A stretch of 64,000 nt of DNA from Litoreibacter arenae DSM 19593 (GTDB lineage Bacteria; Pseudomonadota; Alphaproteobacteria; Rhodobacterales; Rhodobacteraceae). The stretch is from assembly GCF_000442275.2 (NCBI RefSeq), contig NZ_KE557306.1:186001-250000 (forward strand), written 5' to 3'. The translations under genes and the position numbers were made by a program. Below the pieces are notes generated by a model. The model saw nothing but the letters and a program-made list of their open reading frames with translations, made no database searches and was not told the DNA's origin. This document shows positions 4,118 through 31,885 of this stretch, piece by piece; the stretch's first letter is position 1, and each line of letters begins with the position of its first letter.

Positions 4118-4347
4118 ACTACTCTCCAGAAGCATAGATCTAAGAAATCTTACCACGATATTATGACATATCGCAGGCAAATAAGGCAAAAATTAGAAAA
4201 ATTAAGGCGCTTGCGCCACATTCCGCCGGGCGCGCGGAAACGAACCGTTTCCCGCTTTGCATAAGCAGTGCGCTAAAGCGCCTAGTATAACCCAGACAGA
4301 CCACGCTGGTGAAAGCGCGGCACAGGGTCTACGTGTTGGTGGCGTAA

Positions 4348-4542
4348 TCAGAATGTGGAGATTTTATCTTGGGCTTCCAACCGGTAGCCTCGCTCTTCTT
4401 CCAGCTCTTCTACGCCGTCGACGATCCCGGCCACTGCGAAGACACCGAAAACCACAAGGACCCCACCCATTGCCATAACTTCGACAGTTATCGCTCCCGC
4501 GTCCTCTCGGAAGAATTTCTTTATGAGTATTTTCAGTGTCAT
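4348..4542 (-). CDS. Divergent Flp-like pilin (64 aa)
   Basis: The ATG at 4542 has GAGG nine bases upstream. The leader MTLKILIKKFFREDAG is nearly the same as in the neighbouring pilins, but the body differs: AITVEVMAMGGVLVVFGVFA replaces the VDWVVLTAAIVGLG core, and the tail is very acidic then basic (DGVEELEEERGYRLEAQ). A Glu is present at the +5 position after the expected Gly cleavage site. The common leader with an altered body suggests a minor pilin or pseudopilin made by the same prepilin peptidase. That role is inference. Confidence 0.7.
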   Translation of the reverse strand: MTLKILIKKFFREDAGAITVEVMAMGGVLVVFGVFAVAGIVDGVEELEEERGYRLEAQDKISTF

Positions 4543-4675
4543 GGTTTGTTCCTCAAGTTTTTTGCTAACAAGATACTGATTTGCGTCGGCTTTCACGTCC
4601 TTCGGAATGCTACCAGCTAAAAAGGCTGTTCTGTTAAGCGGCGATTGACGCTGCTCAGTTCAGATACGCATCCCC

Positions 4676-4873
4676 TTACTGAAACGAGGTCGAAACAGTT
4701 TGGGTCGTTAGCTGGGTTTCAATGTCACCAGACAGGTCTTCCATACCTTCGGAAACGGGGGCCATAACGGCGACACCCAAACCGACAATGGCTGCGGTCA
4801 GCACGACCCAGTCTACGGTCACGGCGCCAGCTTCGTCAGTTGCGAATTTTTTGATTAATGTGTTCAGTGTCAT
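4676..4873 (-). CDS. Flp-family type IVb pilin (65 aa)
   Basis: The ATG at 4873 begins MTLNTLIKKFATDEAG, followed by AVTVDWVVLTAAIVGLGVAV and a tail with EGMEDLSGDIETQLTTQ. It is closely similar to the copy at 5134-5328, so the two are probably recent duplicates. A G-rich stretch (GGATGGGAT) lies upstream of the start. Cleavage by the Tad prepilin peptidase is expected between Gly and Ala, giving a mature pilin of about 50 residues. The residue at +5 is Asp and the next is Trp, as in the sister copy. Confidence 0.85.
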   Translation of the reverse strand: MTLNTLIKKFATDEAGAVTVDWVVLTAAIVGLGVAVMAPVSEGMEDLSGDIETQLTTQTVSTSFQ

Positions 4874-5070
4874 AGTGCATCCCATCCAAGGGTATAAGCT
4901 TAGTTTCTCAGTCACTCGTGAAGCTTGTCCAACGCGTTCAACCTCTGCTCCAGGCTATGTCGCTGTCGTGACTATATTAACCATCCCCTCTGAGAGGACA
5001 GGCGCGAAGACCGGCGGCATGCGAATGCGAATTTTTCTCAAGAATCATTCACGAGTTGCAAGTCGCGTTG

Positions 5071-5100
5071 AAAAGGCCGCGCCCCGAAGAACGCGGCCTC
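5071..5100 (-). terminator. Intrinsic terminator downstream of the first pilin gene
   Basis: A perfect 8-bp stem has arms AGGCCGCG and CGCGGCCT around a ten-base loop. On the minus strand it is followed by TTTTC. It lies 34 bases past the stop of the pilin at 5134-5328. It would let that first pilin be made in excess over the downstream genes, as expected for a major pilin. Confidence 0.75.
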
Positions 5101-5133
5101 ATCTCTGTAGTCGCTAAGTAATGGCAGTTGCGC

Positions 5134-5328
5134 TTAGAACGCGGCTGCAACACCTTGCGTGGTCAGCTGGTTTTCGATGTCGCCGGACAGATCTTCCAGA
5201 CCGTCGGAGACCGAAGCCATAACTGCGATGCCCAGGCCAACGATGGCTGCGGTCAGCACAACCCAGTCAACGGTCACGGCGCCAGATTCGTCAGCTGCGA
5301 AATTCTTGATCAGTGTGTTCAGTTTCAT
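5134..5328 (-). CDS. Flp-family type IVb pilin, likely major pilin (64 aa)
   Basis: The ATG at 5328 has a strong GGAGGG eight bases upstream. The protein reads MKLNTLIKNFAADESG, then AVTVDWVVLTAAIVGLGIAV and a tail DGLEDLSGDIENQLTTQ. It is the first gene of the leftward Tad cluster and has its own terminator at 5071-5100, which suggests a separate abundant transcript. Gly-Ala cleavage by the prepilin peptidase is expected. Calling it the major pilin is inference from gene order, the strong ribosome site and the terminator. Confidence 0.87.
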   Translation of the reverse strand: MKLNTLIKNFAADESGAVTVDWVVLTAAIVGLGIAVMASVSDGLEDLSGDIENQLTTQGVAAAF

Positions 5329-11584: not shown

Positions 11585-11638
11585 TCGACAGGCTCCGGAT
11601 CCTATCCGTTTGAAGAAATACGTTGGATTGAAAAGTTC

Positions 11639-11683
11639 TGGAGGCGAGTGGAAGAATCGAACGCCCGAACACGAATTTGAAAT
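11639..11683 (-). repeat. Degenerate tRNA-Cys 3' half (possible att site)
   Basis: On the minus strand this 45-base stretch can be aligned without gaps to the 3' half of the tRNA-Cys gene at 19070-19143, with 34 of 45 positions identical by my count. The anticodon-loop end (CAAAT), the T loop (GTTCGATTC) and the last ten bases (CTCGCCTCCA) are kept, while the T stem no longer pairs well. It lies in the same orientation as the intact tRNA and 7.4 kb on its 3' side, as expected for the far attachment site of an element that integrated at that tRNA. Confidence 0.65.
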
Positions 11684-11751
11684 TCAGTTTATTTATACAT
11701 AAGAACAGAATCTTATAGTGGAAACGTATCAGGATATTTGGCGAGCAAGAA

Positions 11752-12240
11752 GTGAACCTGATTTCGTCGCTTTTGCAGGCTCAAAACCATGAACGGCACG
11801 GCATTGATGTGGCTGCGAACGTCAAAGGATTGAAGCCCGCTGCCAATATCGTGCTGATCCAGCTGGTGGATTTCCACGACAAAGAATCCGGCCAATGTAA
11901 TCCAAGTGCGAAGCGGTTGGCCGATGAATTCGAAATGACGTGTGCAATGCTGTTTTGGCATATGATGAAGTTAGCGGAATGTGGCCTTGTCACGCGTCAT
12001 GCCCGTTGGGATGCGATGGCAGATGCGGTCCAACCATTATGAATTGCAACTCGATGTCAATCTTGGCCCCGGTGCGTGTCCGAAGGGTGGGGACAGCGGT
12101 CCGAACGGGGTTGTGTCGCAAAATGAGACAGGCGGAAACGTCTCAAAAAACAGAGGGAGCGTCCCAGCGTTGAGACAGGGTTATTCTCAGGCGGATACAC
12201 GAACCTTACCATTGAACCTGAAAAAACCTCCTTGGCGCAG
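11752..12240 (+). pseudogene. Frameshifted replication-type helix-turn-helix gene
   Basis: From 11752 the frame encodes a winged-helix type sequence (IVLIQLVDFHDKESGQCNPS, then AKRLADEFEMT and MMKLAECGLVTRHAR) like the HTH_36 proteins found in plasmids and phages. It stops at 12042, but the next frame continues with SNHYELQLDV and a low-complexity stretch of NETGGNVSKNRG type, which is what these proteins have after the wing. A +1 shift near 12025 restores the join. It therefore looks like a broken replication-initiator-like or phage gene and a relic of a mobile element. The exact end is uncertain. Confidence 0.55.
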
Positions 12241-12383
12241 GTCTGGTTGGCTACCTTGTGGCGGACAAGGTGCTGGCCGACAAAGCACCAATTCGCTGCG
12301 GCTGCACCGAGGTCGGCAATTGGCACCTCGCGAAGACCTAACGTGCTCCAAATTCAATCGGTTATCCAAGAGCATTGATACTG

Positions 12384-13067
12384 CTAGCTGTTAGAATAGG
12401 CTCCGATTTTCGACGTGCTAAGTTTGTTGTTCACCAAGGCCTCAGCAAATGTAACCCCAGCAGCCACTCCATCTATGACGGGTAAACCGAATTCGTCGCT
12501 TAACTTCGCCATCAGGTCAGCCATTCCTGCGCAGCCAAGAACGATTGCCTCTGAGTGGTCCTGTTCGATGGACGCACGGATTTCAGATCGGATCCTGTCC
12601 AGAGTCGCCGGGTCTCCCTCTTCCAGCTTCAGGACCGGGATTTCAGTTGCTCGAACACGCGCGCATTTCTGAGCAAGCCCATACCGCTGAAGGTTGTTTT
12701 CCAAGCCTGGCACCGAACGAGACAGGGTTGTGATCACGCTGAACTTATTCGCGATCATGCTGGCTGCATGATACGCAGCCTCTCCGATGCCCAGAACAGG
12801 CAAAGACGAAAGTGTACGTACCGCGTCGACGCCGGTGTCATCGAAGCAGGCAACGACGATGGCATCAACATCCGTGTGACGACCCACTTCTTCCAACAAG
12901 CCGGGCACGCAATTGGCGACATCCAAAAACCCCTGGATGCTTGCCGGACCGTTCCGAGAATTGGTCGCCACGATCTCGGTGTCGGGTCGGGCAACCGCGC
13001 GCGCCGCCGCCCCGATTTTGGTGGTCATTGACGTGGTGGTGTTTGGATTCACGACGAGGATTTTCAT
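12384..13067 (-). CDS. Asp/Glu/hydantoin racemase family protein
   Basis: The 227-residue protein begins MKILVVNPNTT and has the two catalytic Cys expected for the cofactor-independent racemases: C74 in VVACFDDTGVDAV and C179 in IVLGCAGMADL. The closest fit is hydantoin racemase (HyuE type), which interconverts D and L 5-substituted hydantoins, but related members act on other amides. It is the last gene of the ABC transporter operon and starts directly at the end of the livF-like stop (TAAATG), with GGGAGGTGA upstream. No hydantoinase gene is in the window. Confidence 0.85.
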   Translation of the reverse strand: MKILVVNPNTTTSMTTKIGAAARAVARPDTEIVATNSRNGPASIQGFLDVANCVPGLLEEVGRHTDVDAIVVACFDDTGVDAVRTLSSLPVLGIGEAAYHAASMIANKFSVITTLSRSVPGLENNLQRYGLAQKCARVRATEIPVLKLEEGDPATLDRIRSEIRASIEQDHSEAIVLGCAGMADLMAKLSDEFGLPVIDGVAAGVTFAEALVNNKLSTSKIGAYSNS

Positions 13068-13790
13068 TTAGACATCACCTCCCAGGTAGGCGGCCTTGAT
13101 GCGGTCGTCATGCAGCAGCTCTTTCGAGTTGCCTTCGATTACCACATTGCCGGTTGCCATGGCATATGCGCGGTTAGAAATGCTGAGCGCCATGCGGGAG
13201 TTTTGTTCGACCAGCAAAACGGATACGCCTTCGTCTCGGTTGATGGCAACGATGGACCGCGCAATGTCCTGCACCAGCTTTGGCGCGATCCCCAAACTTG
13301 GTTCGTCCAGCAGCAACAGCTTGGGCTTGGCCATCAATGCGCGGCCGATCACCATCATCTGCTGCTCGCCACCGGACAGCGTTCCCGACGCTTGGCTGTA
13401 GCGTTCTTTCAGCCGTGGAAAACGGGTCAGGATGCTGTCGAGCGTATCCTGAATCTCGCCCTTGTTGCTGCGGGTGAAGGCCCCCATCATCAGGTTGTCC
13501 TTGACCGACATATAGGGGAATACACGGCGGCCTTCGGGAACCATTGCAATCCCCCGCCCGACGATGCTTGAGGGGTCGGTGCCGTCGACACGTGTGCCCT
13601 CGAAGGTGACGGACCCTTTCACCGGTTTCGCAAGGCCCGTAATCGCACGCAAGATTGACGTCTTGCCTGCCCCATTGGCCCCGATCAGGGCAACTGTTTC
13701 TCCCTCATTTACCGTCAGCGACACCCCTTTCAGGGCGTAGACGTGATCGTAGTAAAGTTCGACATCTTTGAAATCCAACATAACCGTCAT
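13068..13790 (-). CDS. Branched-chain-type ABC transporter ATP-binding protein (LivF-like)
   Basis: The 240-residue ATPase has Walker A GANGAGKTS, the signature LSGGEQQMMVIGRAL and Walker B LLLLDEPSLGIAPKLV. It powers uptake together with the LivG-like subunit and the two permeases upstream. It is three bases past the livG-like stop. The last genes of the operon are this and the racemase, so the transported compound may be a racemase substrate. Confidence 0.9.
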   Translation of the reverse strand: MTVMLDFKDVELYYDHVYALKGVSLTVNEGETVALIGANGAGKTSILRAITGLAKPVKGSVTFEGTRVDGTDPSSIVGRGIAMVPEGRRVFPYMSVKDNLMMGAFTRSNKGEIQDTLDSILTRFPRLKERYSQASGTLSGGEQQMMVIGRALMAKPKLLLLDEPSLGIAPKLVQDIARSIVAINRDEGVSVLLVEQNSRMALSISNRAYAMATGNVVIEGNSKELLHDDRIKAAYLGGDV

Positions 13791-13793
13791 GGC

Positions 13794-14576
13794 TTACATC
13801 CCAATTTCGTCGTCGGCGCTGCCCAGATAGGCCTCTATGACTTTTTCGTTGTTCTGGATTTCAGACGGCGTGCCTTCGGCGATCTTTTCGCCAAAGTTCA
13901 AGACCACGATCCTGTCAGAGATTTTCATCACGGCAGGCATGTCATGTTCCACCAGCATGACGGTCACGCCGCGCTCGTCCCGGACGGACCGCACCAGATC
14001 CACCATGCGCATGGTCTCGTCATGGTTCATGCCCGCAAAAGGCTCGTCCAGCAAAAGCACCTTGGGGTCTGTCGCCAGCCCGATTGCGATGCCAAGTGCA
14101 CGCAGGTTGCCCTGCGGCAGATTACTTGCCAGCTCGTCGGAAATGGCGGTCATGCCCAAGAACGCGAGTAGCTCATCGGCGTATCGCCCAAAGGAATCCA
14201 CATCCTGTTGCGCTGTTTTTGAGCCCCAGAAATATCCTGCCAGCGACGCCTTGGCGCGCAAGTGCTGCGCGACGACCACGCTTTCCCGGACGGTCATGCT
14301 TTTGAAGATCGTCGTTTCCTGAAACGTGCGCACGACGCCTTTTCGGGCCACCATGTGCGGTTTCAGGTTGGAGATCCGTTCCCCGCGATACAGCACTTCG
14401 CCGGATGTCGTCGGTACAAATGAGGAGATCATCTTGAACAAAGTGGATTTGCCCGCTCCGTTTGGCCCGATCACTGACAGGATTTCATTTTCGGAGACGT
14501 CAAAGCTGATGTCGTTGTTTGCGGTGAGGCCACCGTATTTCTTGGTGACATTCTTGACTTGAAGAAGGGGGCTCAT
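13794..14576 (-). CDS. Branched-chain-type ABC transporter ATP-binding protein (LivG-like)
   Basis: The 260-residue ATPase has Walker A GPNGAGKSTLF, signature LPQGNLRALGIAIGL (a diverged LSGGQ) and Walker B VLLLDEPFAGMNHDE, followed by VMLVEHDM. The LPQGNLR signature is the form usual for LivG. The gene overlaps the end of the LivM-like permease gene by four bases. Confidence 0.9.
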   Translation of the reverse strand: MSPLLQVKNVTKKYGGLTANNDISFDVSENEILSVIGPNGAGKSTLFKMISSFVPTTSGEVLYRGERISNLKPHMVARKGVVRTFQETTIFKSMTVRESVVVAQHLRAKASLAGYFWGSKTAQQDVDSFGRYADELLAFLGMTAISDELASNLPQGNLRALGIAIGLATDPKVLLLDEPFAGMNHDETMRMVDLVRSVRDERGVTVMLVEHDMPAVMKISDRIVVLNFGEKIAEGTPSEIQNNEKVIEAYLGSADDEIGM

Positions 14577-15553
14577 TTTTTGCCCCCCTTGCTGAAGCGA
14601 ATACTCAGCAAACCGTCAGGCAAGAAGCGGATCACAACGATCAGGATGATCGAATAGATCAACAATTGGTATTTGCCGAACTCGAAAAGCAGGTCCCAGC
14701 CAAAGTAGATCACCAGCGTGCCCAGCATTGGGCCGAAGACGTATCCCAGCCCTCCGAGGAAGCAGTTCAGCATGAAATCCACGGAATCCTTGACGACAAA
14801 GGTTGCCGGATAGACCGATTGCGAGATGGACCCGAACATGGCACCGCCAATCCCGCCGAAGAAGCTCGAGATTGAGAAGATCAGGATACGGATATAAGTG
14901 ATGTTCACCCCGATAGAGCTCGCAAGCTCTTCGTTCTGCTGCATCGAGCGGCACAGATGCCCAAGCCGCGAATTCACCAAACGGTAGAGCGTGGCATATG
15001 TGATGACCATCAAAATACAGGCGGTGAAGTAGAACGCCATACGCGCGTTTTCAATCTCACCAAAGTCGGGGATCAGAGTTATTCCAAAGAGAGACACTCC
15101 GGAAGGAAGCGGGATGTTCGTGATACCCTTGGCCCCGTTGGTGATGGGCAACGCCAGTGCAGTCAGCGTCGCAACCTGCGTGAAAACAAGGGTGATCATG
15201 GCAAAGTAGACACCACGCAGGCGCAAGATCGGCAGGCCCAACAATGCGGCAACCAGAGCCGCGAATAGCCCCGCTGCCGGAAGGGAGAGCCAGAAGGACC
15301 AGCCCGCCTTGACCACAAGAATGGCCGAGACGTAGGCACCGACCAACGCAAAGGCACCCTGTCCGATATTGATCCGACCGATGTAAAAGGTGAGCCACAC
15401 CCCGGCACTCGCGATGGCCAGCAGCGCCACTGAGGTAAGTGTGAAGTAGAAGTCCCAGCGTCCTGTCGCGGCGATAAAGAGCGGCACCCCAACAAAAATC
15501 ACGAGCAGAAATATGGCAACGCCAAGGACATGTTTTGCGGAAAGGTTCATCAT
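14573..15553 (-). CDS. Branched-chain-type ABC transporter permease (LivM-like)
   Basis: The 326-residue membrane protein has about nine hydrophobic segments and the family pieces GRINIGQGAFALVGAYVSA and SSFFGGIGGAMFGSI. It pairs with the LivH-like permease to form the inner-membrane channel. It starts at an ATG four bases after the livH-like stop. Confidence 0.9.
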   Translation of the reverse strand: MMNLSAKHVLGVAIFLLVIFVGVPLFIAATGRWDFYFTLTSVALLAIASAGVWLTFYIGRINIGQGAFALVGAYVSAILVVKAGWSFWLSLPAAGLFAALVAALLGLPILRLRGVYFAMITLVFTQVATLTALALPITNGAKGITNIPLPSGVSLFGITLIPDFGEIENARMAFYFTACILMVITYATLYRLVNSRLGHLCRSMQQNEELASSIGVNITYIRILIFSISSFFGGIGGAMFGSISQSVYPATFVVKDSVDFMLNCFLGGLGYVFGPMLGTLVIYFGWDLLFEFGKYQLLIYSIILIVVIRFLPDGLLSIRFSKGGKK

Positions 15554-15557
15554 TGGT

Positions 15558-16427
15558 TCAGCCCCACGGTTTGCCCATCAGGCCCTGCGGCCGGATTGCT
15601 AGAAAGATCATGAGCGAGACAAAGATCAGCAGGTATGTGATGTCGCCGTATTGCGACAGGTAGGCCAGTCCAAACGCCTCGAGGAAACCAAGGATGAACC
15701 CGCCCCAGATGGCACCGGAAATCACACCTGCGCCGCCGATCATGACCATCATGAAGGCCTTGATGGATGTCGGACCACCCATGCCAAGATTGATGCCGGT
15801 GATGGTGACAAGCAGGCCACCCACAAGGCCGGCCAACAGCGCACCCAGGGCGAAGCCAATCATCGAATAGCGGTCGACGTTGACACCCATCAGTTGGGCG
15901 GCCGTCCGGTCCTGCGCCAGTGCGCGCAGCGCGCGTCCTGTCTTGGTGTATTGCATCAGGGCGATAAAAGCGACGATCGACAGGATCGCCAGAACACAGA
16001 TCAGGATCCTGTCATACGGCATAATCACCCGGAAATCCCAGTTGAAGACACCGTCCACGATCTTGGGCACACCGCGCTGCTTTTCGCCGAAGACCAGCAG
16101 GATCAGCGCATCGAGCAAAAAGGCGATCCCTGCGGCCAGCAACATGGTGCTCTCCTCGCGGGATGACCCTTTGATGACAGGCGCGAACAGATATTTTTCA
16201 ATCAATGCCCCAATGATCGCAAGCGTTATGCAGGACATGAGTAGCGCCAGAACAAAGGGAATGCCCCATTGCCCGTAGAGCGTGTAGGTGACGAAGCCGC
16301 CGATGACATACATCTGCCCGTGGGCAAAGTTCAGGACGTTCATCAACGCAAATATCAGGGTCAATCCCAAGGCGATCATCGCATATTGGGACCCCAGATA
16401 GACCCCATTGGCCAGTATCTGTTCCAT
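15558..16427 (-). CDS. Branched-chain-type ABC transporter permease (LivH-like)
   Basis: The 289-residue membrane protein has the family pieces LNFAHGQMYVIGGF, RALAQDRTAAQLMGVNVDR and ALGALLAGLVGGLLV. It is the first permease gene after the substrate-binding protein gene. The 91-base gap to that gene allows for a processing or attenuation site, but none is clear. GAAAG lies upstream of the start. Confidence 0.9.
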   Translation of the reverse strand: MEQILANGVYLGSQYAMIALGLTLIFALMNVLNFAHGQMYVIGGFVTYTLYGQWGIPFVLALLMSCITLAIIGALIEKYLFAPVIKGSSREESTMLLAAGIAFLLDALILLVFGEKQRGVPKIVDGVFNWDFRVIMPYDRILICVLAILSIVAFIALMQYTKTGRALRALAQDRTAAQLMGVNVDRYSMIGFALGALLAGLVGGLLVTITGINLGMGGPTSIKAFMMVMIGGAGVISGAIWGGFILGFLEAFGLAYLSQYGDITYLLIFVSLMIFLAIRPQGLMGKPWG

Positions 16428-16518
16428 GAGCTTTTACTTTCTTTGGCAAACCCGGTCTGTGCCGCCGGAGTAAACTGCCCCCGGACGCATCCGGAAGCAG
16501 TCAGTCACATTGTTGGGT

Positions 16519-17706
16519 TTAGTCGACGCGCGCGATGAACATCGTTTCGAATGCGCCGTCTTGATAGACATTGACCACCAAAGGCACCGCGATCTGGCGC
16601 TTTTGGCCAAACGACGTCATGCCCACATAGGTCAGCTGCTCGTCGCCGTTCATGTAGGGGTTCGGTGCGGAAAAGCTATCCATCGATGCTTTGAATGCCG
16701 AAACATCGTCGATGGCTTCGGGCGTAGCTTTCAGCGTTTCAAGGATATACTCCAGCGCGTAGACCTTGGTGTTGGATTCGTCGTTATACTCGCCAAACAT
16801 TTTGGTATAGCGATCGACAAATTCGTTCATCATCGGCGAGGCCAGCTCGGGTGTGGACGCGCCACCGACCGAGATAAACCCGTTGGCCAGATCACCGGCA
16901 CCTTCTGCCAGAACACCGGCGTCCTGGGCCGTCTCGGTCGAGATCAGACCCTCAAAGCCCAGTTCGCGTGCAGAGCGGATCAACTGAGGCGCATTTGCAG
17001 GTGACACACCGGACAGGACCAGAAGGTCAGGACGGGAGCGCAGGATCGGTGTCAAGACAGGCGTGAAGTCTGTTGTGTCGACCTGATATGTGACCGAGTC
17101 AGACACAACGTCGAGGCCCAGTTCCTTGGCTGCGGCAACACCGCCGTCGCGCTGGCTCAACGGATCAGATTCGTTGGCAGCAATAAACGCAACCGTCTTG
17201 ACACCTTCGTTTTCCATCAGGTGTTTGTAGATCGCGGGACCGGACTGGTAGTTTGCGATCATGCCCAGGACAGCATTGGAGGCCGGTGCGGTATACAGCT
17301 CCTTCGGGAACGCGTATGGGAAGTACATGATGTCGCTGGCCTCGGCCACGGGGCGCACAGCCGCCGCACCGTCATCGACGTTCGGCCCGACGACGTAGTG
17401 GATGCCTTCCTGCGCCATCTTCTCCATACCCGCAATTGCGCGCTTGGGGTCTTTCTGGTCGTCGAAAGACACGATCTCGATGTCATAGGTGGTACCGCCG
17501 ATTTCGTATCCGCCGGTTTCGTTGATCCATGCGGCGCGGGTTTCCATTGAACGCTGGTTGGAAATGCCCCAGGCCGCTGCGGGGCCACTGGTCACACCAA
17601 CAAAGCCAATTTTCAGAACCGGATTTTCTGCAAGTGCCGTTGTTGTTTGAAGGGCGGTCAGGGTCACGGCCGTCAAAGCCGCTTTCATAAGTGTTCTACG
17701 TTGCAT
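16519..17706 (-). CDS. ABC transporter substrate-binding protein (Peripla_BP_6 type)
   Basis: The 395-residue protein starts with a signal peptide (MQRRTLMKAALTAVTLTAL, cleavage near ALAEN) that carries a twin Arg, so Tat export is possible. The mature part has two lobes of the type seen in amide, urea and branched-chain amino acid binders (LKIGFVGVTSGPAAAWG, and GPNVDDGAAAVRPVAEAS). The ligand cannot be read from sequence. GGGAG eight bases before the ATG gives a good start. It is the first gene of the operon and is divergent from the GntR regulator gene. Confidence 0.88.
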   Translation of the reverse strand: MQRRTLMKAALTAVTLTALQTTTALAENPVLKIGFVGVTSGPAAAWGISNQRSMETRAAWINETGGYEIGGTTYDIEIVSFDDQKDPKRAIAGMEKMAQEGIHYVVGPNVDDGAAAVRPVAEASDIMYFPYAFPKELYTAPASNAVLGMIANYQSGPAIYKHLMENEGVKTVAFIAANESDPLSQRDGGVAAAKELGLDVVSDSVTYQVDTTDFTPVLTPILRSRPDLLVLSGVSPANAPQLIRSARELGFEGLISTETAQDAGVLAEGAGDLANGFISVGGASTPELASPMMNEFVDRYTKMFGEYNDESNTKVYALEYILETLKATPEAIDDVSAFKASMDSFSAPNPYMNGDEQLTYVGMTSFGQKRQIAVPLVVNVYQDGAFETMFIARVD

Positions 17707-17801
17707 TCTTAACTCCCGTTGAATTCAATTTCGACGCATGTTGCGCCATTCTTGGCGGGCAGTTTGATGGGGTCTCCATGCTTGCCGCTAGGTAACTTGA
17801 C

Positions 17802-17847
17802 GATTGTTAACAATCTTTGTCAACATATTTGGTATTTTGGTCGACAA
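17802..17847. promoter_or_regulatory. Three candidate GntR operators in the divergent promoter
   Basis: Three related ten-base sites of the form TKGT-NN-ACAW lie here: TTGTTAACAA (17804-17813, the core of the 14-base palindrome GATTGTTAACAATC), TTGTCAACAT (17817-17826) and TGGTCGACAA (17838-17847). FCD-type GntR proteins often bind short TNGT/ACNA palindromes. They lie between the substrate-binding protein gene and the gntR gene, so they could control both. That the neighbouring GntR binds them is inference. Confidence 0.6.
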
Positions 17848-17934
17848 ATCCGAGAGCTTGGCCTTAAACTGATTGAAGGTTAAGTGTTCCCTGCCAGCAA
17901 AGCCGCATAAATAACCCATCTTGAAAGCACTCTC

Positions 17935-18654
17935 GTGTCCTCAATTCCTCAGAAAAACAGTACAGGAAAGTCGGACCCGAAACCGGAATCAGATGAAAGT
18001 TTCATTGTCGAGCGCATCTACAAGGCGGTCATGGAACAACGTTTGGCACCCAATACCAAATTGAGTGAAGCGCGGCTGTGCGAGACCTTTGGTGTTGGCC
18101 GTATGAGGGTTCGAAGGGCACTTCTACTACTCTCGAGCCAAGGGTTGATTGAGCTCCAGTCAAATCGCGGTGCTTATGTCGCTTGTCCTGACAAGTCCGA
18201 GGCCAACGATGTATTTGCGGCTCGGATGCTCATTGAACCACCGCTTGTTCGGCAATTGGCTCAAAGCTCTAGTGATATAGATTTGACGGTTCTCGTTGAT
18301 CACATTGCCCTTGAAGACGCCGCTCGCATACAAAATGAACGCACTGAAATCATTCGGTTATCTGGAGAATTTCACACAAAACTCGCTCAGGCATCGGGGA
18401 ACAAATTCGTCTTTAGAATGATGCGCGAGTTGGTCACACGGACATCGCTAATCGTGGGCCTCTTCGGGTCGTCACAAAACGCGAGTTGTCCAGATGATGA
18501 ACACAACAACATCCTGAAGGCGATCCAGACAAAAAACGCAGAGTTGGCCGAACAGCTTCTCATATCCCACCTGAACCACATTCAGAGCGGCCTTGATATG
18601 GAATCTCGGCAGGAACCTCAGGATGATCTGGCCGCTATACTTGGTATGGATTGA
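17935..18654 (+). CDS. GntR-family regulator with FCD domain
   Basis: The 239-residue protein has an N-terminal winged helix (residues about 25-90: LSEARLCETFGVGRMRVRRA and SQGLIELQSNRGAYVACP) and a C-terminal helical ligand domain of FCD type (EFHTKLAQASGN, DDEHNNILKAI and a later LLISHLNHIQSGL). It starts with GTG. It most likely controls the divergent ABC transporter-racemase operon in response to its substrate. The stop codon coincides with the left end of an IS3-type remnant; the C-terminal sequence looks naturally ended. Confidence 0.88.
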   Translation: MSSIPQKNSTGKSDPKPESDESFIVERIYKAVMEQRLAPNTKLSEARLCETFGVGRMRVRRALLLLSSQGLIELQSNRGAYVACPDKSEANDVFAARMLIEPPLVRQLAQSSSDIDLTVLVDHIALEDAARIQNERTEIIRLSGEFHTKLAQASGNKFVFRMMRELVTRTSLIVGLFGSSQNASCPDDEHNNILKAIQTKNAELAEQLLISHLNHIQSGLDMESRQEPQDDLAAILGMD

Positions 18655-18857
18655 TCTGACTGATTAGCCCCCGGTGCTGTAAACGCCTTCTTCCCCGATT
18701 TTGAGGGAAAGAAGCCGTCATGTGGAAGCCGGATTCCAGTGAAGATTTCAAGCGATATGCGGTGCATCACATCGCATCTCGCGGGTATGCCGTTCAAGAG
18801 ATGTCTGAGCGGTTGGGCGTCAGCAGCTATTCTTTGTACAAATGGATGAAGCTGTAT
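18652..18857 (+). mobile_element. IS3-family insertion sequence remnant (OrfA 5' part)
   Basis: The start at about 18652 (TGATCTGACTGATTAGCCCCC) looks like an IS3-type end. From 18720 the frame encodes EDFKRYAVHHIASRGYAVQE and ERLGVSSYSLYKWMK, the N-terminal helix-turn-helix of IS3 OrfA. The rest of OrfA, OrfB and the right end are missing. The frame then runs without a break into integrase sequence at about 18858, so a deletion joined the two. Confidence 0.7.
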
Positions 18858-19010
18858 GCGGGCTGCGATGACGATGAGATCGCCAGCTACTCCGGCCACA
18901 TGTCGAAGTCCATGATCCTGAAGTACGCGGGTGAGGCGCGGCAAGAGATGCGAGCCAAGCGTGCAAATGAGAAGCGCTCACGCTCGGAACGGAACGAGAC
19001 CAAATCATGA
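18858..19010 (+). pseudogene. C-terminal end of a tyrosine recombinase (integrase remnant)
   Basis: About 50 residues remain. The phrases CDDDEIASYSGH and MILKYAGEARQ fit the last part of a phage-type tyrosine integrase, with the active-site His in SGH and the nucleophile Tyr in KYAGEARQ; a basic tail follows. The N-terminal and core domains are gone and the frame is fused to an IS3 OrfA fragment. It ends 60 bases from the 3' end of tRNA-Cys and reads toward it, which is the usual place for the integrase of a tRNA-targeting island. Confidence 0.65.
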
Positions 19011-19069
19011 AACTGATACCAGGAGTGATACCCCAATGAGACGCCAAAGAAGCAACCCATTGATTTTAT

Positions 19070-19143
19070 TGGAGGCGAGTACCGGAATCGAACCGGTGTA
19101 CACGGATTTGCAATCCGCTGCGTCACCACTCCGCCAACTCGCC
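19070..19143 (-). tRNA. tRNA-Cys (anticodon GCA)
   Basis: On the minus strand the acceptor stem pairs GGCGAGT with ACTCGCC, the anticodon loop is TTGCAAA (anticodon GCA) and the T loop is GTTCGATTC. The 3' end is followed by an encoded CCA. The length with CCA is 74. Its 3' side faces the integrase remnant and the 7.4-kb region ending in a degenerate copy of its 3' half. Confidence 0.95.
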
Positions 19144-24619: not shown

Positions 24620-27600
24620 ATGACCCGTGAAACCGCTATCGACCTGCGCGAGGAAATGCGCGCCCATATGCTTCCTAACGAACGCGACGTGCTGGACCAG
24701 TTGATAGCCACGGCCAACCTGTCCGCCGAGGACCGCCAGCGTATTGCCGATGCGGGTGCCGCACTGGTCAAGCAAATCCGCAGCTCCGCCAAACCCGGTT
24801 TGATGGAGGTATTCCTCGCCGAATACGGCCTGTCCACCGACGAGGGCGTCGCGCTGATGTGCTTGGCCGAAGCTTTGCTGCGTGTGCCAGACGCCGACAC
24901 GATGGACGCGCTGATCGAGGATAAGATCGCGCCGTCCGACTGGGGCCGCCATTTAGGCCATTCGGCGTCCTCCTTGGTTAACGCGTCCACATGGGCGCTG
25001 ATGCTGACCGGCAAGGTTCTTGAGGAGGAGTCGCGCGGTATCGCAGGGCAGGTGCGCGGCATGGTCAAGCGGTTGGGCGAGCCGGTGATCCGAACCGCCG
25101 TAGCCCGTGCGATGAAGGAGATGGGTCGCCAGTTTGTACTGGGCGAGACGATCGCCAAAGCGATGTCGCGCGCCGAAAACCGCGAGGGGGAGGGCTACAC
25201 CTATTCCTACGACATGCTCGGCGAAGCCGCACGCACCGACGCCGACGCACGGGGCTATTTCGACGCCTATCGCAACGCGATTGACGCGATCACCAAGGCT
25301 GCGACCCATGGCGACATCCGTTCCAACCCCGGCATTTCTGTCAAGCTGTCCGCGCTCTACCCACGCTATGAGTCACCGCACAAAGGCGGGGTGATGGATG
25401 TGCTGGTCCCCCGTCTGTCGCAGCTTTGCCACATGGCCGCCGAAGGTGGAGTCGGCCTCAACATCGACGCTGAGGAGGCCGACCGCCTTGATTTGTCGCT
25501 AGACGTGATCGAAGCGGCGTTGTCCGATGACACATTGAAAGGTTGGGACGGTTTTGGCGTCGTGGTGCAAGCCTACGGGCCCCGCGCCAGCTTTGTCATC
25601 GACTGGCTTTATGCACTCGCCAGCCGCCTTGATCGCCGCATTATGGTGCGCCTCGTGAAAGGCGCGTACTGGGACACTGAAATCAAACGTGCGCAGGTCA
25701 TGGGTCTCAGCGGTTTTCCCGTCTTCACCCATAAGCAAGCGACCGACGTGTCCTACATCGCCAACGCCCGCAAGCTGTTGGGTCTGACCGACCGCATCTA
25801 TCCACAATTTGCGACGCACAACGCCCATACGGTCGCCGCGATCCTTGATATGGCCACCGATTACGATGCGTTCGAGTTCCAGCGTCTGCATGGAATGGGT
25901 GAGCGGCTTCATGACATCGTCTTGCGCCGCGAAAAGACCCGCTGCCGGATATATGCCCCCGTGGGTGCGCATCGTGACTTGCTGGCCTATCTGGTGCGCC
26001 GTTTGCTCGAGAACGGTGCGAACAGCTCCTTCGTCAACCAGATCGTGGACGAGGACGTGCCTGCCTCCAAAGTGGCATCCGACCCGTTTGCTGAGCTCGA
26101 AGGGTTGAGCTTTCCCGCTGTGACGCTGCCTGCCAACATCTTCCCGGGCCGCAAGAACTCCCAAGGTTGGGACTGGACCGACCCGCGCGACATGGGCGCA
26201 ATCGACGCCGTCCGCGACAAATTCCGCGACGGCCAGACCGAGGTTGCGCCTTTGATCGTGTCGGCAAAGTCAGGCACCGACCAACGCAAGCTGCATGCCC
26301 CCGCCACGCCGGATGATCACGTGGGCACCGTGCACCTCGCCTCCACCGAAGACGCTGCCGCAGCGGTGAAAGCGGCGCAGCCATGGAGTGCGACCGCGTC
26401 GGAGCGCTCCAAGGTGTTGCTCAAAGCCGCCGACCTCTACGAGGCCAACATTGGCCCCATCTTCGCCCTGCTGGCCCGCGAAGCCGGCAAAACCATGCCC
26501 GATTGTATTGGTGAGGTCCGCGAGGCGGTCGACTTCCTGCGCTATTATGCGGGCGAGGCGGGCAAACTCACTGGCGCGCCGCGAGGGCGCTTCGTCTGCA
26601 TCTCGCCATGGAACTTCCCGCTGGCGATTTTTACTGGCCAGATTGCGGCAGCCTTGGCCGCAGGCAATGCGGTCCTCGCCAAGCCTGCCGAGCAAACCCC
26701 GCTTATCGCGCACTTGGCGACCTCGCTGCTACACGAGGCAGGGGTGCCGCTCGCGTCCCTGCAACTCCTTCCCGGCGGCGGCGAGGTGGGCGCGGCCTTG
26801 ACCGCGCAACCAGACGTGGATGGTGTCTGCTTCACCGGCTCAACGGCCACCGCCATGCGCGTTCACCGAAGCCTTGCGGAGGATGGCAACGCCACCGCAC
26901 CGCTGATTGCGGAAACCGGCGGCCTCAACGCCATGATCGTCGACAGCACCGCGCTGCCCGAACAGGCGACGCGCGACATCGTCGCCTCCGCCTTCCAGTC
27001 CGCAGGCCAGCGTTGCTCCGCTCTGCGCTGCCTATATGTGCAGGAAGACGTGGCCGAAGGTCTGATCGAGATGATCAAAGGTGCGATGGACGCGCTCAAT
27101 GTCGGTGACCCGTGGCACGTCAGCACGGATGTCGGCCCGATCATCGACGCCGCCGCCCGCGACAAGATTGCGGCCTATATCGACATCGCCCGCGCCGAGG
27201 GCAGGGTGATCCACGAGCTTCAGACCCCGAAATCCGGCACCTTCATCGCGCCGACCATGTTGCGCGTCGACAGCATCGCCCAGATGAAGGAGGAGATATT
27301 CGGCCCCGTCCTCCATGTCGCAACCTTTAAGTCGCACCAGCTTGAGCAGGTCATCGACCAGATCAACGCCACCGGCTACGGGCTGACCTTCGGCCTGCAC
27401 TCGCGCATTGACGACCGGGTGCAAGAGGTCGTTGACCGCGTCCACGCGGGCAACATCTATGTCAACCGCAACCAGATCGGCGCGGTCGTCGGCTCTCAAC
27501 CTTTTGGTGGTGAAGGGCTTTCGGGCACCGGCCCCAAGGCGGGCGGGCCGCTTTATCTGACCAAGTTCACCCAAAGCAACGGCGCGCCTGTGATGCCGGA

Positions 27601-27967
27601 GGTGCAGGACATGCCCGGACCAACCGGGGAGACAAACCGTTTGTCCACCCATTCCCGCGCGCCGTTCCTGTGTCTTGGGCCCGACCCCGCTGCCCAAATC
27701 GCGGCTGTGCAGGCCGCAGGCGGCACCGCACGCGAAGGCATGATCGAGGAGGTCGCGACCACGCCCGACATCTCGGGGGTGCTCTGGTTTGGAGACGCGG
27801 ACACCGCCCGCCGCATCCGGCAGGACTTGGCAAGCCGCGACGGCCCGATCTTGCAGCTAATCACCGAAGCCCCGCGCCCCTGCGATACGCTGGCCGAGCG
27901 GCACGTTTGCATCGACACCACTGCGTCGGGTGGCAACGCGGCTTTGTTGGCGGAGGTGGGCGCTTGA
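24620..27967 (+). CDS. putA: Bifunctional proline dehydrogenase / P5C dehydrogenase PutA
   Basis: The 1115-residue enzyme oxidises proline to glutamate. The N-terminal half is the FAD-dependent proline dehydrogenase (GISVKLSALYPRYE, RLVKGAYWDTEIKRAQ and FEFQRLHGMGERL). The C-terminal half is an aldehyde dehydrogenase with CISPWNFPLAIFTGQIAAAL, VCFTGSTATAM and the catalytic Cys in SAGQRCSALRC, then EIFGPVLHV. It starts MTRETAIDLREEMRAHML, so the ribbon-helix-helix DNA-binding domain of some PutA proteins is absent. The start at 24620 has GGAG upstream. Partial overlap between substrate channel and C-terminal tail is typical. It is divergent from the Lrp-type regulator. Confidence 0.96.
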   Translation: MTRETAIDLREEMRAHMLPNERDVLDQLIATANLSAEDRQRIADAGAALVKQIRSSAKPGLMEVFLAEYGLSTDEGVALMCLAEALLRVPDADTMDALIEDKIAPSDWGRHLGHSASSLVNASTWALMLTGKVLEEESRGIAGQVRGMVKRLGEPVIRTAVARAMKEMGRQFVLGETIAKAMSRAENREGEGYTYSYDMLGEAARTDADARGYFDAYRNAIDAITKAATHGDIRSNPGISVKLSALYPRYESPHKGGVMDVLVPRLSQLCHMAAEGGVGLNIDAEEADRLDLSLDVIEAALSDDTLKGWDGFGVVVQAYGPRASFVIDWLYALASRLDRRIMVRLVKGAYWDTEIKRAQVMGLSGFPVFTHKQATDVSYIANARKLLGLTDRIYPQFATHNAHTVAAILDMATDYDAFEFQRLHGMGERLHDIVLRREKTRCRIYAPVGAHRDLLAYLVRRLLENGANSSFVNQIVDEDVPASKVASDPFAELEGLSFPAVTLPANIFPGRKNSQGWDWTDPRDMGAIDAVRDKFRDGQTEVAPLIVSAKSGTDQRKLHAPATPDDHVGTVHLASTEDAAAAVKAAQPWSATASERSKVLLKAADLYEANIGPIFALLAREAGKTMPDCIGEVREAVDFLRYYAGEAGKLTGAPRGRFVCISPWNFPLAIFTGQIAAALAAGNAVLAKPAEQTPLIAHLATSLLHEAGVPLASLQLLPGGGEVGAALTAQPDVDGVCFTGSTATAMRVHRSLAEDGNATAPLIAETGGLNAMIVDSTALPEQATRDIVASAFQSAGQRCSALRCLYVQEDVAEGLIEMIKGAMDALNVGDPWHVSTDVGPIIDAAARDKIAAYIDIARAEGRVIHELQTPKSGTFIAPTMLRVDSIAQMKEEIFGPVLHVATFKSHQLEQVIDQINATGYGLTFGLHSRIDDRVQEVVDRVHAGNIYVNRNQIGAVVGSQPFGGEGLSGTGPKAGGPLYLTKFTQSNGAPVMPEVQDMPGPTGETNRLSTHSRAPFLCLGPDPAAQIAAVQAAGGTAREGMIEEVATTPDISGVLWFGDADTARRIRQDLASRDGPILQLITEAPRPCDTLAERHVCIDTTASGGNAALLAEVGA

Positions 27968-27998
27968 CCCCCTTCGCTCAATCGGTCAGCGTCGCGCC

Positions 27999-28739
27999 AT
28001 GTTTCCAATCCGCGACCACAACCCGTCCGAGCGCACGCCCTATGTGACCTACGCACTGATCGCGCTGAATGTCGTGATCTTCGTCAGCTACTGGCCATTG
28101 TTCGACAACGAACGCGCCCTGGCCGCGTTCTTCAACATATGGGCCATGCGCCCGGTCGAGGTAAGCTCGGGCGCGCAGACTTACACGCTCGTCACCTCCA
28201 TGTTTTTGCATGGCGGCCTGATGCACTTAGCTGGGAACATGCTGTTTTTGTGGATTTTCGGCGACAATCTGGAAGACCAGATGGGTCATGTCGGCTTCGC
28301 CTTGTTCTATCTTGCTGCTGGCGTTGGTGCGGATCTGGTGCAACTTCTGGCAGATCCCTACAGTCCGGTTCCCGTAGTGGGCGCGTCAGGAGCGATAGCG
28401 GGCGTCATGGGCGGCTACCTATTGCTCTTCCCGCGCGCCAAGGTCGATATCATTTTCATTTTCGTGATCTTTTTCAAAATATTCCCGGTGCCTGCATGGG
28501 CCATGCTAGGCATCTGGTTTGGCCTGCAAGTGTTCAACGGCGTCGCAAACTTCGGTGCGGATGGCGTCGGCGTCGCCTACTGGGCGCATGCAGGCGGTTT
28601 CGTGATCGGGCTGCTGTTGTGCCTGCCGCTATGGCTTAAACGCGGCGGCGCGCGTTACTGGAAGGTGACCGACGGACATCCGCCACACCCCGAGGCAAAA
28701 TACCGCTCCTCCATTCCTTCCGTGCGGAGACGCAAATGA
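27999..28739 (+). CDS. Rhomboid-family intramembrane serine protease
   Basis: The 246-residue protein has six to seven membrane segments, the loop motif SMFLHGGLMHLAGNMLFLW, the catalytic Ser in VVGASGAIAGVMGGY and a His in AYWAHAGGFVIGLLL. These match the GxSG and His of rhomboids, so it should cut membrane proteins within the bilayer. The ATG at 27999 is chosen because it begins the typical FPIRDHNPSERTPYVTY start. It follows putA by 31 bases and overlaps the GT10 gene by four bases. Confidence 0.92.
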   Translation: MFPIRDHNPSERTPYVTYALIALNVVIFVSYWPLFDNERALAAFFNIWAMRPVEVSSGAQTYTLVTSMFLHGGLMHLAGNMLFLWIFGDNLEDQMGHVGFALFYLAAGVGADLVQLLADPYSPVPVVGASGAIAGVMGGYLLLFPRAKVDIIFIFVIFFKIFPVPAWAMLGIWFGLQVFNGVANFGADGVGVAYWAHAGGFVIGLLLCLPLWLKRGGARYWKVTDGHPPHPEAKYRSSIPSVRRRK

Positions 28740-29614
28740 ACGACAATCCTGCCTATGCCGTCGTCCCCTATAACAGCTGGCCCGCGGTCGGTATGGCGAA
28801 CACGCCACTCGATAGTCTGCATTGGCCGCTGGGGCGGCCCGAGCGGTTGGCGCGCGGTACCGTGCGGGACATGGGGCCTCAAGATCACCTGATTGCCTAT
28901 CCCAACTCAGAGTTGTTCTACGCGCCCTGGTTGGGCATTCGGGCTCAGGTTTCAGTGATGATCGTAGAGCCCGATGCGGTTCACGCAAAAAACCTGAAAC
29001 GCGCTTACCGATGGCGTAAATCATTTCGTTCGATTTTAACCAAATCGGAGAGTTTGCTGGCACAGATCGACAATGGAATTTTCTTCTATTTTGGTTCTAC
29101 GTTCATTGACGATATTTCCGGCATCAACCCCGAAAAGTCCCGCCATATGTCACTGATTGCGTCAGGTAAACGTGACCTTGAGGGGCATCAACTTCGCCAC
29201 CGTATGATTGATTTCGTGCGGGAAAAAGGGCTGGATGTCGATGTCATGGGACGCGGCTACAAGCCGTTCGAGCGCAAGGCCGATGGATTGGAGAGCTATC
29301 GTTTCTCACTGATCATCGAGAATGTTCGCGAACGGCATTACTTCACCGAAAAGATCGTCGATGCCGCGTTGTGCAGAACTGTACCGATTTACTGGGGATG
29401 TCCTAATATCGGTGATTATTTCGATACGGACGGCATTCTGATCTGCGAAACCGAGGAGCAGGTCCGCGACGCTTTGCAGCGCGTCAATGCTGAGGACTAC
29501 GCCGCCCGCAGCATCGCCATCGAGGAAAACGCCCGGCGGGCGAAATTCTATGCCGACTACCTAGAACGTGCCGCCCTGACGGTCCAAAGCGGTAAAGCCT
29601 GCCACTACGCCTGA
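28736..29614 (+). CDS. Glycosyltransferase family 10 (alpha-fucosyltransferase-like)
   Basis: The 292-residue protein has the GT10 C-terminal signature: the region YRFSLIIENVRERHYFTEKI, followed by VDAALCRTVPIYWGCPNI. GT10 enzymes move fucose from GDP-fucose to an alpha-1,3 or alpha-1,4 position. There is no signal peptide or membrane segment, so it acts in the cytoplasm. It has GGAG six bases before the start and is translationally coupled to the rhomboid gene. The acceptor glycan is unknown. Confidence 0.85.
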   Translation: MNDNPAYAVVPYNSWPAVGMANTPLDSLHWPLGRPERLARGTVRDMGPQDHLIAYPNSELFYAPWLGIRAQVSVMIVEPDAVHAKNLKRAYRWRKSFRSILTKSESLLAQIDNGIFFYFGSTFIDDISGINPEKSRHMSLIASGKRDLEGHQLRHRMIDFVREKGLDVDVMGRGYKPFERKADGLESYRFSLIIENVRERHYFTEKIVDAALCRTVPIYWGCPNIGDYFDTDGILICETEEQVRDALQRVNAEDYAARSIAIEENARRAKFYADYLERAALTVQSGKACHYA

Positions 29615-29875
29615 GAGCGGTGCCATTCTTCTTAGACGAACCGGTAACACCACGCCTCTTGGTGAGCCTTCACCAAATCGCTCCGCTCGCTGTCGGGTAG
29701 CGTCCCGTCTTTTGGTGAAACTGCGTCTGAACGATCTCCAACCAAGCAAAATCGATCGAGCCCGGTCCGCTTGACGGAAATTTACAATTCAGGTCCGCTC
29801 AGATCTGAGCTATTGGGGCGCATAATTTGGAAAACGCGGTGGAGCAGTGCAAGCTTTGCGGCCATGGGGCAGGAC

Positions 29876-30733
29876 ATGATCTACAGCAGAATTTTCGGCG
29901 GTTTGGGCAACCAACTGTTCCAATATGCCACGGCCCGTGCCGTATCGCTTCGGCAAGGCGTCGAGTTGGTCTTGGATACACGCCTTGCGCCTCCGGGCTC
30001 GCATTGGGCGTTTGGACTCGATCACTTCAATATCTCCGCGCGTATCGCCGAGCCGTCCGAGTTGCCGCCTTCCAAGGACAATTTCTTCAAGTATGTGATG
30101 TGGCGGGCTTTCGGGCATGATCCGGCCTTCATGCGCGAAAGGGGGCTCGGTTATCAGAGCCGCATCGCACAGGCACCTGACGGCACCTATCTGCACGGCT
30201 ACTTCCAATCCGAGCGCTACTTCGCAGATGTGCTTGACCATCTTGAAAACGAGCTGCGTATCGTCACGCCCCCGGATACACGAAACGCTGAATACGCGGA
30301 CCGGATTGCCAGCGCAGGGCACACCGTATCGCTGCATGTGCGGCGGGGGGACTATGTGGAGACGTCAAAGTCCAACTCCACCCACGCGACATGTGATGAG
30401 GCGTATTATCTGCGCGCGTTAGCGCGGTTATCCGAGGGCAAAAGCGACCTCAAGGTCTTCGTCTTCTCGGACGATCCCGAATGGGTGCGCGACAACCTGA
30501 AGCTGCCATATGACACCACGCCAGTTGGTCATAACGGACCCGACAAGCCTCACGAGGACTTGCGGCTTATGTCATGTTGTTCGGATCACGTAATCGCCAA
30601 TTCCACGTTTTCGTGGTGGGGCGGCTGGCTTGACCGCAGGCCCGAGGCGCGGGTGGTCGGGCCTGCGAAATGGTTCAACAACCCGAAATTGGTTAATCCA
30701 GATATCCTGCCCGAGCGCTGGATCGCCATCTAG
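29876..30733 (+). CDS. Glycosyltransferase family 11 (alpha-1,2-fucosyltransferase-like)
   Basis: The 285-residue protein has the GT11 start IYSRIFGGLGNQLFQYATA, the GDP-fucose motif SLHVRRGDYVE and ANSTFSWWGGWLD, all expected of alpha-1,2-fucosyltransferases. An ATG at 29864 is also possible, but 29876 starts at the conserved block and has AGGAC just upstream. It follows the GT10 gene by 261 bases. With that gene it suggests a doubly fucosylated surface glycan. No GDP-fucose synthesis gene is in the window. Confidence 0.88.
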   Translation: MIYSRIFGGLGNQLFQYATARAVSLRQGVELVLDTRLAPPGSHWAFGLDHFNISARIAEPSELPPSKDNFFKYVMWRAFGHDPAFMRERGLGYQSRIAQAPDGTYLHGYFQSERYFADVLDHLENELRIVTPPDTRNAEYADRIASAGHTVSLHVRRGDYVETSKSNSTHATCDEAYYLRALARLSEGKSDLKVFVFSDDPEWVRDNLKLPYDTTPVGHNGPDKPHEDLRLMSCCSDHVIANSTFSWWGGWLDRRPEARVVGPAKWFNNPKLVNPDILPERWIAI

Positions 30734-30737
30734 GTGT

Positions 30738-31301
30738 TTAAGCCCGCTCCGAATATTCCATCGACTCGGTGTCGACGATGATGTCTTCGTCAACGCCCAC
30801 AAACGGCGGCACCATGATGCGCACGCCGTTGTCCAGAACCGCAGGCTTGAAGCTCTTGGAGGCTGTCTGACCTTTGATCACAGGTTCGGTTTCCACCACC
30901 TTGCAGACAACCTTCTGAGGCAATGTGGCGTTCAACGCTTCGGATTCGTGGAACTCTACCACCGCGACCATACCGTCTTGCAGGAAGGGGCGGCGGTCGC
31001 CCAGTAGGTCAGCTGGTAGTTCGATCTGCTCATAGGTCTCGGTGTCCATGAAGGTCAGCATGCCATCTGTTTCATAAAGAAATTGTTGGTCTTTTTGTTC
31101 CAGACGAACGCGCTCAACCTTGTCGGCACTGCGGAAACGCTCGTTCAGTTTTGAGCCGTTGCGCAGGTTTTTCATCTCGACCTGAGCAAACGCGCCGCCC
31201 TTTCCGGGCTTCACGTGGTCCACTTTCACCGCGACCCAGAGGCCGCCGTTATGTTCCAGAACATTGCCACCGCGGATTTCGTTTCCGTTGATTTTAGGCA
31301 T
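30738..31301 (-). CDS. efp: Elongation factor P
   Basis: The 187-residue protein has the normal length and begins [20 protein letters not shown]. The modification site is Lys34 in VKPGKGGAF, and the OB domains follow ([20 protein letters not shown]). EF-P helps ribosomes through runs of proline. The ATG at 31301 is the family start; the frame is open further upstream but that part is not family-like. It converges with the GT11 gene, four bases apart. Confidence 0.95.
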
Positions 31302-31517
31302 TGTGGCGATTCCTTGACAAAAGGTTGATACAAGTTGGAACAATCCTATATCTGGGGAGTTATGGGGAGGCAAGAAGACTAGATACGGTTAATGGTGATG
31401 TAGAGTTATGCGCCTGTCGCATGGGTGGTATTCCTAATACGCAATGACGAATCGGAAAATATCTGTCACAACCGTGCTTACGCCCGAAGATACAAGAGCA
31501 AAAACAAAGGAAACGAA

Positions 31518-31832: not shown

Positions 31833-31858
31833 GGTCGGACCCAAGAGAAATTTTGAAG

Positions 31859-31885
31859 CGCGTCCCATCTGGGGCGCGTTTTTTT
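31859..31885 (+). terminator. Intrinsic terminator after the DUF6280 gene
   Basis: An 8-bp stem with arms CGCGTCCC and GGGGCGCG (one G-T pair) and a four-base loop is followed by seven T. It is 26 bases past the DUF6280 stop. Confidence 0.9.

Follow-up and report, generated by a model that had tools for sequence, protein, structure and literature searches.

A probable broken integrative and mobilizable element with an apparently swapped T-stem in the only tRNA-Cys gene of Litoreibacter arenae, beside an intact transporter-racemase cassette

How did a complete uptake operon come to lie between a tRNA-Cys gene and a decayed copy of that gene's own 3' half? This arrangement occurs in the 64,000 nt of Litoreibacter arenae DSM 19593 that we analyzed (NZ_KE557306.1, positions 186,001-250,000; hereafter the window, in whose coordinates all positions are given). 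An earlier note on this DNA had described the region as a decayed genomic island at tRNA-Cys. That island reading is supported, as empty sites occur in 3 of 20 congeners and both ends of the region match one family of integrative and mobilizable elements (IMEs). Window 11639-19143 is thus very probably a broken IME that sits in the genome's only tRNA-Cys gene, with an apparently swapped T-stem, beside an intact gene cassette. The genome itself is labeled G000, and it was compared with 20 congeners of the same genus, with 248 genomes of the family (its own included), and, for an integrase scan, with 84,980 species genomes.

The tRNA-Cys gene (GCA anticodon; 19070-19143, minus strand) was identified by ARAGORN and by Rfam RF00005 (65.2 bits) and has a 3' half of the CCGG type. 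It is the one single tRNA-Cys among the 40 tRNA genes found in the 14 contigs of the genome. The far end of the region is marked by positions 11639-11684 (minus strand), a candidate far attachment site that is identical to the 3' half of the tRNA at 34 of 46 positions, all 34 of them within the first 45. The runner-up sites inside the window reached 25/46 on the plus strand and 26/46 on the minus strand. The degenerate 3'-half copy, previously given as 34/45 in the same orientation and on the 3' side of the tRNA, was borne out; the highest match in 100 first-order Markov windows of 64 kb each was 29/46. The region has the intact tRNA and, 3' of it in like orientation, the displaced 3' fragment that characterize tRNA-targeting genomic islands.

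Comparison with the congeners provided the unoccupied form of the locus. The earlier note had anticipated that an empty site would join the flanking genes DUF3572 and pcm around one tRNA-Cys, and exactly this was seen in G001, G009, and G011, where the two genes lie 361-411 bp apart with a single tRNA-Cys between them. The same distance is about 10 kb in G007, 34 kb in G013, 60 kb in G002, and 68 kb in G016, and these four genomes have an extra inner copy of the tRNA 3' half with 44, 45, 46, and 46 of 46 positions identical, respectively. The empty-site count excludes the other 13 congeners, whose flanks are split between contigs or separated by 100 kb or more; G019 gave no match to either flank. 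In a tree of the genus, G001/G009 and G011 are placed around G000 and G002, with weak to moderate supports of 52, 79, and 85. The branching alone of this tree was used, as its T-stem labels for G012, G023, and G027 are defaults.

Both ends of the region resemble intact elements in G015 (also locus L184, stretch L148) and G246 (also L193, stretch L150); the figures for these comparisons are among the matches listed. From the repeat onward, the left end of the island aligns with the left end of the G015 element at 77% over 610 bp, followed by a 48-bp match to the relaxase gene. This stretch contains an HTH_36 gene (11752-12232, plus strand; Pfam 7.2e-7), cut at about half its length, whose previously reported frameshift was confirmed against the intact G015 homologue, to which its two frames match at 51% and 56%. 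Adjacent to it lies a scrap of the relaxase start (12234-12281, plus strand; about residues 13-28); over these 48 bp it is 85% identical to the relaxase gene of G015 (blastn E 5e-10). About 0.9 kb of the G015 sequence, from the middle of the helix-turn-helix gene to the relaxase start, is missing from the window. This scrap is all that the window retains of the mobilization genes, with no mobC left, and both genes are intact in G015 and G246. Together, the HTH_36 gene and the relaxase scrap point to an IME as the vehicle.

At the tRNA end, the tail of a tyrosine integrase (18855-19010, plus strand) is 76% identical to the G015 integrase and 73% identical to that of G246 over 41 residues (E about 2e-14). 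The aligned integrase end lies 90 bp from the tRNA, a spacing equal to that in G015. The tail follows in frame after a piece of the insertion sequence family IS3, so that the open reading frame (ORF) at 18720-19010 is a chimera, beginning with an IS3-type OrfA piece (Pfam HTH_Tnp_1 4.8e-8). The integrase tail proposed earlier near the tRNA thus stands, as it matches intact integrases, but the start of its ORF belongs to IS3 OrfA and not to an integrase. The IS3 piece (18646-18858, plus strand) is the cut start of an element whose left end can be placed only to within a few bases of the GntR stop codon, and it is 96% identical to G000:C11:492985-493197. The OrfA start alone is left, with no full OrfA or OrfB, and the IS3 model scored it at 6.4e-6, under the cut-off. 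An intact integrase gene is absent from the island, in which only the tail survives behind the IS3 piece, and we therefore call the vehicle a remnant. A longer IS3-type copy was observed on contig 11 (L112, about 4340-5200), by eye among flagellar-type genes, and its second reading frame looks shortened. An alignment of five integrase-tRNA spacers (19011-19069 in the window) revealed two TGATACC words that the window's spacer shares with four intact elements and that are possible integrase binding sites.

The family to which these ends belong was traced by scanning the species genomes with the G015 and G246 integrases. The scan returned 25 loci, whose titles all name genera that we take to be Rhodobacterales. 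A tRNA-Cys 3' half lies 84-123 bp beyond the integrase in 22 of the 25; L186 and L207 end too early to judge. Homologues of the helix-turn-helix, mobC, and relaxase genes occur together in five loci (L184, L185, L189, L190, and L192), with G246's own set in L150, and in many others the far end lies beyond the stretch covered or has no recognizable homologue of the three. The G015 element encodes HTH_36, NikA-like/MobC, and MobA/VirD2-type relaxase proteins (the last at Pfam 2.3e-5, barely above the cut-off) and an intact integrase, together with a Gp49-like gene slightly below the cut-off, an HNH nuclease, and two DNA methyltransferases (L148:6165-9682). The G246 element has a G015-like layout by eye and carries the Gabija genes GajA and GajB (PADLOC 1.9e-243 and 1.6e-225) and a type IIG restriction gene (L150:6113-14364).

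The divergence of the left copy from the tRNA appears to have more than one source. In the three empty-site genomes the T-stem reads AGGAG/CTCCT, and in G000 and four other occupied genomes it reads ACCGG/CCGGT. These two alleles differ at six columns, of which the left copy shares four with the empty-site allele and none with the present tRNA; at the other two it matches neither. Over its whole length it is identical to the GGAG allele at 38 of 46 positions, compared with 34 for CCGG, and a simple independent-sites model gives a likelihood ratio of 1.4e4 in favor of GGAG. The better fit of the left copy to the empty-site allele than to the present tRNA suggests that the T-stem was swapped upon integration. 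Most simply, the left copy would be the host's old 3' half, whereas the present 3' half of the tRNA would have arrived with the element. The high divergence of the repeat had been attributed to the age of the event; decay is indeed present, but part of the divergence is a difference between the host and element alleles.

Similar contrasts were found in intact relatives. G015 and G246 combine a displaced CGAG-type half with a CCGG tRNA, and Oceaniglobus indicus (L185) combines a displaced GGAG-type half with a CCGG tRNA. Seven elements of the family are two-ended (L184, L185, L189, L190, L194, L208, and G246; for L194 and L208 the far copy is assumed to be part of the same element), and three of them show the allele contrast. 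G018 is the sister of G015 (support 100; pcm 89% identical), and its tRNA site carries CGAG; it does not offer a clean empty site, because an integrase of a different type lies about 1 kb away. The displaced copies of the window (11639-11684) and of L185 (L185:1252), both of the GGAG type, are identical at 39 of 46 positions and carry an identical G-to-A substitution in the part from the anticodon stem (CACGAATTTG), which may reflect a shared origin or recurrent decay.

Several observations weigh against the reading of a broken IME with a swapped T-stem. The remaining four of the seven two-ended elements have CCGG at both ends, with no allele difference. CCGG is also the common allele of the genus, present in exact form in each of 15 of 21 genomes, and in six of seven further CCGG congeners (G004, G005, G008, G014, G017, and G020; not G006) no match to the queried integrases was seen in the stretch covered around the tRNA. 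CCGG alone is therefore no mark of insertion, and the idea that a CCGG tRNA always denotes an occupied site was dropped on these grounds. Family integrases adjoin a GGAG tRNA in L199 and a CGAG tRNA in L200, and the L206 integrase has no tRNA-Cys half in about 8 kb downstream. A displaced GGAG copy was sought in G002, G016, G013, and G007 and not found. The relaxase scrap, which spans 48 bp, is weak at the protein level, with 13 of 15 residues identical and an E value of 0.004. No intact IME that carries the cassette was found.

The cassette itself comprises seven intact ORFs with the expected domains (12384-18654), in agreement with the earlier description of a complete uptake operon with its own GntR regulator. 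Six genes lie on the minus strand. An Asp/Glu/hydantoin racemase family gene (12384-13067; Pfam PF01177 1e-61; PDB 3qvj, a putative hydantoin racemase, 1e-55; 5lfd, an allantoin racemase, 5e-45) is adjoined by genes for two ATP-binding cassette (ABC) ATPases, one LivF-like (13068-13790; Pfam ABC_tran 5.8e-34; LivF model 2e-70) and one LivG-like (13794-14576; LivG model 4.6e-75), both below the equivalog cut-off. A LivM-like permease (14573-15553; LivM model 1.8e-34, below cut-off), a LivH/UrtB-like permease (15558-16427; Pfam BPD_transp_2 1.1e-39; UrtB model 6.4e-45, below cut-off), and a periplasmic substrate-binding protein (16519-17706; Pfam Peripla_BP_6 1.5e-46) complete the operon. The GntR/FCD regulator (17935-18654, plus strand; Pfam FCD 8.3e-20, GntR 1.5e-14) is divergent from it. 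From these assignments, the cassette would most likely serve to take up and racemize a hydantoin, a ureide, or an amino-acid-like compound. An allantoin pathway in G000 was considered and rejected, as the two amidohydrolases found both scored under the allantoinase cut-off.

The distribution of the cassette is patchy. Orthologues of the binding protein with 81-93% identity were found in 12 genomes of other genera among the 248 family genomes searched; one more match, in G145, was excluded at 47%. None of the 20 congeners has an orthologue, and their best matches are at most 33% identical; three of them (G010, G012, and G019) are incomplete genomes. The order of the seven genes is kept in 11 of the 12 cassette genomes, the contig of G146 stopping within the operon, and at the six closest loci nucleotide similarity begins at window 12393-12396 and stops at 18641-18656. 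The CobQ proteins of the cassette genomes, with a match in 11 of 13 searched, are 57-72% identical. A binding protein that is absent from 20 congeners but 81-93% identical in genomes whose CobQ is this divergent indicates that the history of the ABC genes departs from the species tree, a comparison that the earlier note had raised. The ratio of nonsynonymous to synonymous substitution rates (dN/dS) lies between 0.02 and 0.08 in 19 of the 21 gene comparisons made with G283, G117, and G167; dS is saturated in the other two and high in most. Given its patchy spread and low dN/dS, the cassette looks horizontally acquired and functionally kept. A LIV-type operon of G002, located between DUF3572 and the inner attachment (att) copy, was rejected as a cassette orthologue at 27-38% identity.

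The cassette may have traveled with the IME or arrived later. In the second case the region would be a composite, in which the IME inserted first and decayed and the cassette came later and separately, perhaps with the IS3 element, into the remains; we regard this as a serious possibility, although not as the probable course. The IS3 piece abuts the GntR end of the cassette, the two annotated intact members of the family carry defense genes and no transporters, and none of the 12 cassette loci has a tRNA-Cys half within the 9.5-20 kb fetched. Against a composite, the racemase side yielded neither a target-site mark nor a second IS end, and 12282-12383 there is unexplained sequence. These about 100 bp, which run from the relaxase scrap to the racemase stop codon, matched no IME or cassette relative among the matches listed. 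It is improbable that the two ends come from different elements, inserted in tandem with the middle lost. Tandem att copies do exist at the site in G002, G016, G013, and G007, and helix-turn-helix homologues with the same relaxase type occur beside other integrases, for example in G246, where the helix-turn-helix gene is unmatched at 1e-6; yet both ends of the window match the G015 element best among the matches listed.

We give very little credence to the absence of a swap, whereby the left copy would derive from a CCGG half that gained GGAG-like letters by chance, or the tRNA would have changed by ordinary mutation. The copy is short and decayed, and CCGG is common in the genus; the tRNA-Cys pattern search matched 216 of the 248 family genomes, with CCGG the commonest among the matches listed. 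The likelihood ratio reported above speaks for GGAG over CCGG, the three empty-site congeners that have GGAG lie around G000 in the tree, and three intact elements show the allele contrast without decay. That the operon is simply ancestral and stands beside the tRNA, with the repeat and the integrase tail as coincidences, is hardly credible in view of the empty sites, the homologous ends, and the absence of the cassette from 20 congeners. The GC content and the GC content at third codon positions (GC3) of the cargo resemble those of the flanks, GntR excepted, as an ancestral operon would predict, but this composition check is not informative on foreign origin.

Under the preferred reading of a broken IME with a swapped T-stem, an IME would have inserted between DUF3572 and pcm by means of a tyrosine integrase directed at the half of tRNA-Cys from the anticodon to the 3' end. 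The element's tRNA half, with the T-stem ACCGG/CCGGT, would have replaced the GGAG-type half of the host, which was displaced to 11639-11684 and then decayed. A later deletion would have taken the end of the HTH_36 gene, mobC, and the relaxase except for its scrap, and the IS3 piece together with a second deletion would have replaced the integrase except for its tail. The element would no longer be self-moving, while the tRNA and the seven-gene cassette stay intact. The empty sites, the family match and the spacing at the ends, the T-stem alleles, and the patchiness and constraint of the cassette are observed; the order of events, the time of the cassette's arrival, and its job are inferred. 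The uptake cassette would thus have been preserved although the adjoining vehicle died.

At this locus integration appears to have altered, and not merely restored, the single tRNA-Cys of a host, and the old allele can still be read from the displaced fragment. This apparent swap contrasts with the hot spots of Sinorhizobium meliloti, for which the available part of the source reports no single-base change at the corresponding att sites (PMC11476347). A wider proposal, which we consider rather unlikely, is that IMEs of this family, and perhaps a 52-kb conjugative-looking element with the same target too, recurrently rewrite the T-stem in the single tRNA-Cys gene of their Rhodobacterales hosts, so that element traffic, and not point mutation alone, would drive allele turnover and could tune cysteine decoding. 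The changed pairs (50-64, 51-63, and 52-62 in our own cloverleaf numbering) include two of the three pairs, 49-65, 50-64, and 51-63, that are reported to influence EF-Tu binding most (PMC8219837).

Other elements were observed at the same site. Stretches of 52 kb lie between perfect 46-bp tRNA-Cys copies in G002 (L101-L103) and G016 (L107-L110), and in G284, of another genus (L152, L153), two exact tRNA-Cys copies are separated by 53 kb and the integrase shares about 96% identity with that of G002. Such stretches therefore occur in three species of two genera. The G002 region, from which ten proteins were scanned for domains, encodes a relaxase, a VirD4-type coupling protein, a VirB4-type ATPase, HipA, and DUF499/DUF1156 proteins. 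The relaxase, VirD4-type, and VirB4-type genes make it look like an integrative and conjugative element, and elements of this type might mobilize the tRNA-Cys IMEs. These observations point to tRNA-Cys as a hot spot used both by IMEs, some of them with defense genes, and by a conjugative-looking element, which might assist their movement. In G013 (L105, L106), oriented positions 26534-36301 show by eye a second IME-like layout, with a far-end integrase-like gene and mobC-like and relaxase-like genes. Near tRNA-Cys in G003 (L151) and G018 (L149) lies an oppositely oriented integrase that shares about 76% identity with the G007 integrase.

Degenerate IMEs in tRNA genes are a known kind of element; the identity of the vehicle, its family, and the likely cause of the repeat divergence are added here. 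Our literature search found no title on an IME at tRNA-Cys in Rhodobacterales, which is not proof of absence, and the tRNA targets listed for Rhodobacteraceae prophages in the accessible portion of PMC8224337 do not include Cys. The cassette belongs to the same gene families as the LIV/urea-type (HAAT) ABC importers with a hydantoin/allantoin-type racemase, but it scores below the NCBIfam equivalog cut-offs. The intact relaxase of G015 matches those of small MOB plasmids of Ruegeria conchae (72% over 93% of the protein) and Neotabrizicola shimadae (61%), and like them it has a MobC-family partner, whereas the window retains a scrap only. As in IMEs, of which SGI1 is a named example (PMC2297512), G015 and G246 pair a site-specific tyrosine integrase with mobilization genes and have no transfer apparatus in the annotated stretch. 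In contrast, the window copy lost nearly all of its integrase and relaxase, and its neighboring cassette is metabolic, whereas G015 and G246 carry defense genes. The tRNA islands mapped by Islander (PMC4383910) likewise lie between an intact tRNA and a displaced 3' fragment of like orientation. The window differs from these islands in that the T-stem allele of the displaced fragment is not that of the tRNA and in that no integrase is intact, so that filters requiring an integrase ORF may miss it; searches with the empty-site allele may bring up remnants overlooked by integrase-based finders.

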